From: Halapricum desulfuricans
GTDB lineage: Archaea; Halobacteriota; Halobacteria; Halobacteriales; Haloarculaceae
Length of the DNA stretch: 64,000 nt
Assembly: GCF_017094525.1 (NCBI RefSeq)
Contig: NZ_CP064788.1
Coordinates: 806,001 to 870,000 of the forward strand
Direction of reading: 5' to 3'
Positions 5,579 to 58,982 of this stretch are shown here, piece after piece. Position 1 is the first letter of the stretch; each line of letters begins with the position of its first letter. The notes under the pieces are model-generated. The model was not told where the DNA came from. It searched no databases and was given only the letters and a program-made list of their open reading frames with translations. A program made the translations under genes and the position numbers.

Positions 5579-6262
5579 CTACGCGCCGAGACGCTCGCGC
5601 ACGACCAGCAGGCCCGGCAACATCGTGACGACGGCGACGAACGCGAAGACGATCGCCAGCCCCGTCACGATCCCGAACCGCTGGAGCGGCGGCGAGAGCG
5701 CGAAGGCGAGCACGCCGAAGGCCGCCGCGGTCGTCGCGGCGCTGGCGAGGAGTGCCCCGCCGGTCCCGGTGATCGTCCGGGCGAGTGCGGATTCGAGCGT
5801 CTCGGCACGCTCGCGCTCGTCGACGAACCGCTCGCTGGCGTGGATGCTGTAGTCGACGCCGAGGCCGATCGCCAGGCTCGTGATCACCGCCGTCTCGCTG
5901 TTGAACGACACCCCGAGCAGCGACATCGCTCCGAGCAGCCACGCCAGCGCCACCACGACCGGCAGGACCGCCACGGGACCCAGCGACCACGAGCCGTACC
6001 GGACGCGGAACAGCGCTGTCAGGAACAGCAGGATGACCACGAGCGTCACCGCGACGGCCTCGATCAGCGTCTCCAGCAGCGCGTCCTGGATGACCGCCGT
6101 CGTGACGGTCGCGCCTGTCGCCACGGCCGAGACCGTGGCCGCGCCGTCGTCGGCAACGCCGCGATCGATCTGCGCCGCGAACGCGCTGGTGTCCCCGGCG
6201 ATCGTCTGGGCCGATTCGCTCAACCGGACCGAGAGCAGCAGCCGGGCCGACGCTGGATGGAA
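5579..6262 (-). pseudogene. 5'-truncated RND/MMPL-family exporter remnant
   Basis: The open stretch reads as the C-terminal ~225 residues of an RND-superfamily permease: several hydrophobic segments and the family core TSLAIGLGVDYSIHASERFVDE, then an ALARTITGTGGALLAS block and a last transmembrane pair. Intact haloarchaeal MMPL proteins have about 800 or more residues, so the N-terminal half, including the first transmembrane domain, is missing. The frame is closed upstream by a TAG at 6265-6263; the only start-like codon inside is TTG at 6223. The break lies directly beside an IS200/IS605-type right-end relic at 6269-6314, which suggests that a transposition event or deletion removed the 5' part. 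Confidence 0.8.
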
Positions 6263-6268
6263 CTATCT

Positions 6269-6314
6269 TGATTCAGCGGGAGAACCGCGCCGTTCACGGC
6301 GCAGAGGATGTCAC
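6269..6314 (+). mobile_element. Solitary IS200/IS605 (IS1341-type) right-end relic 1
   Basis: 46 bp with the layout of haloarchaeal IS1341-type right ends: TGATTC, a GAGAA segment, a perfect hairpin GCGCCG-TTCA-CGGCGC (6287-6302), then GAGGATGTCAC. A second copy at 57652-57698 matches it at about 41 of 47 aligned positions by eye. No tnpA or tnpB is present beside it. In intact elements this end encodes the 3' part of the guide RNA used by TnpB. Its end supplies the stop codon of the convergent gene at 6311-6874. Confidence 0.65.
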
Positions 6315-6874
6315 TCTTCGTCGTTCTCGCTGGCGTCTTCGACGGTGATCGTCACGGGTTCGTCGGCGTCCAACTCGCGCTCTTCGAGGTGAGAATCGAG
6401 ATTGAAGACCGTGTTGAGCTGTTCCTGTACGTCGTCGACGATCTCCGAGACGAGGTCGCTGGGGGCCATCGCGCTGTACTCGTAGGGGTTGTTGCCCGCG
6501 CCGTCGCTCTCGCGCTTGCGCCGCGTCACTTTGCCCTCCTCGTGGAGTTCCGCGAGCGCCTCCCGGACCGTGCTCGGGTACAGGCCGGTCTCCTCGGCGA
6601 TCTCATCGCTCGTGCTGTGGGGGTATTGGCGGAGATTGACGTATATCCGCGCGCGGGTCTCGGTATCGAGCACCCACGCGAGCAGGTCGACCAGTCGGTC
6701 GTCGAACTCCCCGACCGCCCGGTCGGCTTCCTCTTCGAGACGCTCGCGGACGCCCCCCTCGTCGTCGACCGTTACGCCGACTGGCTCGCCGCCGTCCTCG
6801 GCCTCGACGTCGATTGATTCTCCGCCCCCTGCTACGTCAGTCCGGTCCTCGTCTGTGGTGTCGTCTGGCGACAT
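6311..6874 (-). CDS. Winged helix-turn-helix transcriptional regulator
   Basis: 187 residues. After an acidic ~45-residue N-terminus there is a helical segment (FDDRLVDLLAWVLDTETRARIY) and a winged-helix domain at about residues 75-120, with the recognition-helix region GLYPSTVREALAEL and the basic wing KVTRRKRESDGAG. The C-terminus (residues ~130-187) is acidic and helical and may mediate oligomerisation. The target is unknown. It stands alone between gshA (same strand, upstream) and the RND remnant. The TGA stop lies inside the right-end relic, so the last few residues may differ from those of relatives. Confidence 0.8.
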   Translation of the reverse strand: MSPDDTTDEDRTDVAGGGESIDVEAEDGGEPVGVTVDDEGGVRERLEEEADRAVGEFDDRLVDLLAWVLDTETRARIYVNLRQYPHSTSDEIAEETGLYPSTVREALAELHEEGKVTRRKRESDGAGNNPYEYSAMAPSDLVSEIVDDVQEQLNTVFNLDSHLEERELDADEPVTITVEDASENDEE

Positions 6875-57583: not shown

Positions 57584-57604
57584 GCCTGAAACAGGCAATT
57601 TTTT
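57584..57604 (+). terminator. Orphan terminator-like hairpin
   Basis: GCCTG-AAA-CAGGC followed by AA and six T on the plus strand. No plus-strand gene ends here; the neighbours are both on the minus strand. It could end transcripts leaking from the divergent MinD promoter, or be what remains of a lost gene. Confidence 0.45.
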
Positions 57605-57651
57605 CTGAAAGGGTACTGACTCATAGGGTAGCACACGGAACGAGCCGATCA

Positions 57652-57698
57652 TGATTCGGCGAGAGAATCCCCGCCGTTCACGGCGCGGAGGATGTCAC
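57652..57698 (+). mobile_element. Solitary IS200/IS605 (IS1341-type) right-end relic 2
   Basis: 47 bp like relic 1 at 6269-6314: TGATTC, GAGAA, a GCCG-TTCA-CGGC-centred hairpin with one imperfection further down the stem, then GAGGATGTCAC. No transposase or tnpB sequence is visible beside it. Its GTCAC end contains the stop codon of rbcL on the other strand (57697-57695). Confidence 0.65.
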
Positions 57699-58942
57699 CG
57701 CGTCCCCTCTCGTCCCCACGTTTCGAGTGCCGTCGCGAGTTCGGGCGTCTCCTCGGCGGCAGCGTCGAGCGAGCGCCCCTCGACGGCGGCGTCGACGGCG
57801 GCTCTGAACGCTTTCGCGCCCGCATGACTGCCCTCTGGGTGGCCGTGGATGCCGCCGCCGACCTGCACCGCGAGGTTCGTCCCGAGCGCATCGAGCAACT
57901 CCGGTACGAGTCCGGGATGGAGCCCGCCCGACGCGACCGGCAACACGTCAGCGAGGCCGTGCAGGTCCGACCGAAGCCACTCGTTGATCCCCTTCGTGTC
58001 CTCGTTTTCGAGTTTGCCCAGCCCCGCGGTCCCGGTGTGCAGTTGATCGACGCCGACGAGTCGAGCGACCTGTGCGAGCACGCGCATCGAGACGCCGTGT
58101 TCCGGAACGCGATCGAACGCCGCGTGCATCGCCCGGTGAGCGTGGATCGCCAGCCCGAGGTCCGCCGCCCGCTCGCGGACCTGCTGGACGCTGCTCCAGC
58201 CCGCCGTCACTACGTCGACCATCACGTACTCACAGCCGTGTTCGGCCGCCAGATCGACCCGTTCGAGCATCTCCGGCCCCGGCGCGGTCACGTTCACCAG
58301 ATAGCTCTTGGGCTCGCCGGTCTCCTCCTCGGCGCGGTCCCGCATCGCCAGACTCTCGGTCAGCCGTTCCTCGAAGGGGTTGAACGACTGGTCGGTGAGG
58401 TTCTCGTCGTCTTTGAGCAGGTCCACGCCGCCCGTCCAGATCTCGTAGCCGATCTGTGCGTGCTGGGCGGTCGAGAGCCCGACTTTCGGCTTCGGCACGC
58501 TGGCGGTGATCGGCCGGTCTTCGACGCCGAAAATCTCCGCCCGAACTGCCGACCCGTACTGCGGACCGGGAAAGCTGCTCGCCAGCGACTCGGGCCACTC
58601 ACAGTCCAGCAGGCGGATCCGCTCGACGGCCTTCATCCCCATGATGTTGCCCGTGATACACGACAGCACCTGCGCCATGTTCCCGTGCTCGAACAGCGTG
58701 TCGGGGTAAGCGACGCTGACACGCCCGTCCTCGATCTCGAACGCGCGTGCGCTCAGGTCAGTGATCGACCCTTCCACCTGCAGTCGTGCCCACGTCCCGT
58801 TTGAACTCTCCGAGGCGACCCGGCCCGCGACGGCCTCCGGATCCAGTCCCTCGGCCGGCCGGACCGCGAACCGACAGACGAGGTCGTCATCGCGCGGTTC
58901 GTAGTCCCGATCCAGGAAGTCCTCGTAGCTGATGCCAGCCAT
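57695..58942 (-). CDS. rbcL: Type III ribulose-bisphosphate carboxylase
   Basis: 415 residues, normal for archaeal form III. Catalytic residues are visible: K151 in VPKPKVGLS, the carbamylated lysine K177 with D179 and E180 in GGVDLLKDDE, H269 in AIHAHRAMH, and the phosphate-binding GTAGLGKLE, SGGLHPG and VQVGGGIHGHP blocks. Form III enzymes act in the AMP/nucleoside salvage route to 3-phosphoglycerate; the partner enzymes AMP phosphorylase and ribose-1,5-bisphosphate isomerase are not in this window. ATG at 58942 was chosen. The stop codon is supplied by the right-end relic. Confidence 0.95.
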   Translation of the reverse strand: MAGISYEDFLDRDYEPRDDDLVCRFAVRPAEGLDPEAVAGRVASESSNGTWARLQVEGSITDLSARAFEIEDGRVSVAYPDTLFEHGNMAQVLSCITGNIMGMKAVERIRLLDCEWPESLASSFPGPQYGSAVRAEIFGVEDRPITASVPKPKVGLSTAQHAQIGYEIWTGGVDLLKDDENLTDQSFNPFEERLTESLAMRDRAEEETGEPKSYLVNVTAPGPEMLERVDLAAEHGCEYVMVDVVTAGWSSVQQVRERAADLGLAIHAHRAMHAAFDRVPEHGVSMRVLAQVARLVGVDQLHTGTAGLGKLENEDTKGINEWLRSDLHGLADVLPVASGGLHPGLVPELLDALGTNLAVQVGGGIHGHPEGSHAGAKAFRAAVDAAVEGRSLDAAAEETPELATALETWGREGTR

Positions 58943-58982
58943 GCCCGTAGTATGACCGCCCATGCCAAAAATTCACAGGGCC

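Follow-up and report, generated by a model that had tools for sequence, protein, structure and literature searches.

Known terminal-only elements and the two loci

Short, transposase-less relatives of IS605-type elements have a precedent in Haloquadratum walsbyi, where near-terminal palindromes recombine to leave 52-bp terminal-only PATEs (Dyall-Smith et al., 2011; PMC3119063). In two strains of one species a shared site was seen to hold the full form in one and the short form in the other, and six strain-specific ISHwa23-related insertions were all of the 52-bp form; mobilisation of the short form was suggested to be possible (Dyall-Smith et al., 2011; PMC3119063). Two further systems lie close to the loci described here: ISH12 (ISH1.8), an IS200/IS605 element of Halobacterium and of the phages phiH1 and ChaoS9, which carries tnpA, tnpB and an RNA region and is annotated in both phages as starting after CTAT, and the sotRNA or omegaRNA of haloarchaeal tnpB (RF02656, RF02657; PMC12558985). 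Free-standing IS605 stem-loops at gene 3' ends have also been described in Borrelia.

Here we find that two loci in a 64-kb window (the whole stretch of DNA that was analysed) are very probably terminal-only IS200/IS605 elements with a deleted core, of the ISH12-like kind that bears tnpB. Like HqIRS46 and the ISHwa23 derivative of Haloquadratum, they are fused IS605-type ends with no transposase and a single near-terminal palindrome; unlike those 52-bp PATEs, they have ISH12-like ends and a CTATC target and occur in other genera, and no full/short pair was seen at one site. With ISH12 they share both the ends and the CTAT/CTATC target, but they lack tnpA, tnpB and the RNA region alike. The family consensus matches the ISH12 of phiH1 and ChaoS9 at 92% over the 36 nt of the left end and at 100% over the last 28 nt, the right end, which bears out an earlier sequence-only reading of copy 1 as an IS1341-type (IS200/IS605) terminal sequence. 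In the sotRNA/omegaRNA, the 3' end is the counterpart of the terminal hairpin and tail; the RNA body and any match to its families are missing here. The copies are, in short, scars of an ordinary kind, already described in haloarchaea.

Composition of the copies and of intact elements

The body of copy 1 (6268-6313, plus strand) is a hairpin set between a left-end arm and a right-end tail, and it follows a TAM-like CTATC target (6263..6267, plus strand), the same bases that precede most left ends and terminal-only copies. The left-end arm, TTGATTCAGCGGGAGAAC (6268..6285, plus strand), matches the left ends of the genome's intact tnpB elements; the near-terminal hairpin, CGCGCCGTTCACGGCGCA (6286..6303, plus strand), folds into the stem GCGCCG-TTCA-CGGCGC and is identical to right-end hairpins of intact elements; and the tail, GAGGATGTCA (6304..6313, plus strand), contains on its minus strand the TGA that stops a TrmB-like regulator gene. 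The hairpin and conserved 3' tail together read CGCCGTTCACGGCGCAGAGGATGTCA at 6288-6313, and the 5' half of the copy, CTATCTTGATTCAGCGGGAGAACC, is the left end seen at intact tnpB elements. Both copies hold one hairpin between unlike arms, a near-terminal palindrome without terminal inverted repeats. The 46-bp hairpin element that the sequence-only reading had proposed is real as to its right-end hairpin and tail, although its frame was one base off (6268-6313, not 6269-6314).

That reading had also pointed to a near copy some 51 kb away, and indeed the window has a single second occurrence of the hairpin and tail, at 57672-57697, against 0.00 matches expected from shuffles, which rules out a chance hairpin. 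Copy 2 (57651..57697, plus strand) consists of a left-end arm, the hybrid hairpin CCCCGCCGTTCACGGCGCGG and a right-end tail, and is one base longer than the usual fused form. To its left lies a decayed target, CGATC (57646..57650, plus strand), which reads CTATC at the unoccupied site in the relatives G001 and G002. No tnpA or tnpB lies beside either copy, as had been claimed for copy 1: PF01385 and PF01797 have no match in the 64-kb window, and tblastn of the window with nine TnpB queries gave no TnpB match. A tnpB remnant nearby can be dismissed, since the lone tblastn match, at 25.7-26.4 kb, is a histidine kinase.

The rest of the genome (2.89 Mb, one contig) contains 23 OrfB_IS605 and 2 Y1 transposase matches, all outside the window, and its intact tnpB elements start with CTATCTTGATTCAGCGAGAGAATCCC and finish with GGCGCGGAGGATGTCA. 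The 18-base stretch on the 5' side of the hairpin, TGATTCRGCGRGAGAAYC, has exact or near matches 0.7-1.4 kb upstream of tnpB genes, at left ends that each follow CTATCT (C1:499675(+), 1689272(+), 1513220(+) and 256308(-)); a further exact match lies at 2232132(-). The right ends of these elements finish in GGAGGATGTCA or near variants, so that tnpB genes with a matching 3' flank do exist elsewhere in the genome, as anticipated. Given the left-end matches upstream of tnpB together with the right-end tail, both loci therefore hold a left end joined to a right end, and the view of copy 1 as a solitary IS1341 right end falls, the left end being fused directly to the hairpin.

Several other ends occur in this genome and elsewhere. 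Two more right ends in the genome (2882362 and 2638133) have no detected TnpB match, and another at 2707580 is accompanied by TnpB C-terminal remnants. A Halorientalis marina plasmid (L154, 2501-3073) carries a longer element, of ~570 bp, that has both ends and encloses no annotated gene. In a further locus (L129, near 153, read on the minus strand), the right-end tail of one element is followed directly by a fused copy, head to tail.

Fixed length, hybrid stems and insertion sites

A search of 394 genomes of the order in which the two arms could lie 6-36 nt apart returned 19 strict matches, with a spacing of 16 nt in 18 of them and 15 nt in the other; at 37-67 nt apart there were just 2. One of these repeats the fusion but has a hairpin enlarged by an inner stem-loop, as intact right ends also show. 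At up to 3 mismatches the fused form occurs in 18 of the 394 genomes. Among GTDB contigs a free-gap pattern gave 11 matches, and all 8 haloarchaeal ones span 44 nt, GATTC to GTCA, almost every one being preceded by CTATC-like bases; the remaining 3 (35, 38 and 47 nt, with no CTATC-like flank) look like chance. Viral contigs gave one pattern match, of 53 nt, and no phage record covers 80% of the fused-form query. The fused form is ~51 bp including its target, a near-fixed length that random internal deletions would not produce with such uniformity.

The stems carry a further signature. In the intact elements examined, the left-end hairpin reads CCCGCCG..CGGCGGG as against CCGCGCCG..CGGCGCGG at the right end, and 13 of 32 distinct terminal-only loci, copy 2 among them, have a hairpin whose 5' arm is of the left type and whose 3' arm is of the right type, so that CCCGCC pairs with, for example, GGCGCGG or GGCGAGG and a bulge results. 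These hybrid stems fit the product that would be expected of recombination inside the shared core GCCGTTCACGGC. As a point against this, a right-end-like 5' arm is seen in copy 1 and in the G001 and G002 copies, which suggests that in these few the crossover lay further left and that the crossover point varies.

We propose that a full element of ~1.8 kb would insert 3' of CTATC, and that its two near-terminal palindromes, nearly the same in sequence and orientation, could then serve as a short direct repeat. Were they to recombine, or replication to slip from one to the other, tnpB, the guide-RNA body and one palindrome would be lost, leaving a left arm, one hairpin and a right arm, always ~51 bp once the target is counted; at copy 1 another 2.6 kb, beginning at the right end, would also have been deleted. 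Both ends, the fixed length, the many genera, the hybrid stems and the loss of intact coding sequence and RNA body are seen directly. The repeat-mediated deletion step we infer from this structure and from the Haloquadratum precedent, and the inertness of the copies is likewise inferred.

Copy 1 further lies at the edge of a deletion. Its left edge cuts an MMPL gene, of which a C-terminal fragment remains (5579..6262, minus strand) with an open frame of 227 aa, as against 868-901 aa in five of five genus relatives; on its right, the gene for a TrmB-like/winged-helix regulator (6311..6874, minus strand) ends inside the copy. In G001, a CTGTC stands inside the full-length MMPL gene at the place homologous to the CTATC of copy 1, and the sequence found to the right of copy 1 lies ~2.6 kb beyond that place, where the regulator gene has its stop codon. 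Copy 1 thus marks a ~2.6-kb deletion from the right end of the element, which removed most of the MMPL gene and the next gene. Recombination between two inserted elements was considered as an origin of copy 1 and set aside, as G001 has no CTATC at the right junction and a deletion adjacent to the right end is simpler. The MMPL gene has suffered a second deletion, of ~203 bp, between CCGGGCCGACG repeats.

Copy 2 supplies the stop codon of a RuBisCO large-chain gene (57695-58963, minus strand; 422 aa; Pfam RuBisCO_large and RuBisCO_large_N), and its site is unoccupied in G001 and G002, which have CTATC beside the RuBisCO stop codon. Its right junction lies 2 nt off the unoccupied site of G002, and its left flank has diverged. 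The CTATC at copy 1 and in the unoccupied relatives of copy 2 indicates a short 5' targeting oligonucleotide with no target duplication. The fused copy of G001 also sits at a rearranged junction, and at the sites of copy 1, copy 2 and the G001 copy the relatives are either unoccupied or rearranged, with no full-length and short pair found at one site. CRISPR-like repeats (GTCGCAGCAGGGAGAAAACCCACGACGGGATTGAAAC; L181, about 1350-1500) adjoin the stretch of G000 that is homologous to a flank of the fused copy in G001.

Alternative explanations and implications

Could the 51-bp form be mobile in its own right, as a miniature element moved in trans by the Y1 transposase TnpA, with one hairpin serving both ends and the left and right spacing kept? 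The genome does hold two intact-looking tnpA matches, one genome of the survey (G334) has two identical fused copies in separate places, both lying 3' of CTATC, and the six all-52-bp strain-specific insertions of Haloquadratum (PMC3119063) would agree with such movement, which would place the form among the smallest mobile elements known. We nevertheless consider it unlikely. Fused copies are few (1-2 per genome), those within one genome are mostly unlike in sequence, and hybrid hairpins are what deletion predicts. The known TnpA mechanism, that of IS608, moreover uses a hairpin at each end. Less probable still is that the element has come to act as a 3'-end hairpin, with a role in RNA stability or termination for the genes to which it has given stop codons. 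Each copy does lie where a minus-strand gene has its 3' end, and provides its TGA, and the Borrelia stem-loops offer a precedent; yet no T-run follows the hairpin, fold z-scores against shuffles are weak for the two copies (-1.1 and -0.4), and neither site is occupied in the relatives examined. The placement may be accounted for by the target alone, CTATC being GATAG, with a stop, on the other strand.

The least probable of the alternatives, to which we give hardly any credence, is one raised by the sequence-only reading, in which a guide RNA (reRNA/omegaRNA) would still be encoded by the solitary right end and could serve a TnpB made elsewhere in the genome. TnpB genes are indeed available there, the terminal hairpin and tail are retained, and HgcC (RF00062) matches the 3' part of both copies, on the last hairpin and tail, weakly and below threshold (window 6238-6326 and 57595-57711; E 0.011 and 3.6e-4). 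However, only this hairpin and tail are left of the scaffold: compared with intact elements, the place of the RNA body upstream of the hairpin is taken in both copies by left-end DNA, which makes use by TnpB in trans unlikely. An intact element of the genome (L109) matches sot0042 (RF02656) over 174 nt (E 2e-18, below the gathering score), whereas neither fused copy matches that family or RF02657, and an Rfam scan of the whole window at gathering score is empty. A sot family was matched in just one of eight intact loci, so a missing match is weak evidence by itself, and the direct sequence comparison is what chiefly decides. Furthermore, the G001 sequence that matches the would-be guide of copy 1 is preceded by CAGTTA, not by CTATC. 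A sub-threshold HgcC match also lies on an IS605 right end in another locus (L152, 4258-4368), and such matches at these right ends raise the possibility that HgcC is itself a TnpB guide RNA.

Taken as terminal-only, ISH12-like elements, the two copies add to the known picture an ISH12-like subtype, a wide distribution at near-fixed length, hybrid stems and the deletion that accompanies copy 1; through the near-fixed length, what was seen in Haloquadratum is extended to many genera of haloarchaea. The fused copies also mark insertion and deletion events, for example the loss of the MMPL transporter gene. What looks like a solo guide-RNA scaffold in a haloarchaeon can be a core-deleted transposon scar, and counts of orphan TnpB guide RNAs should therefore check for a fused left end before anything else.
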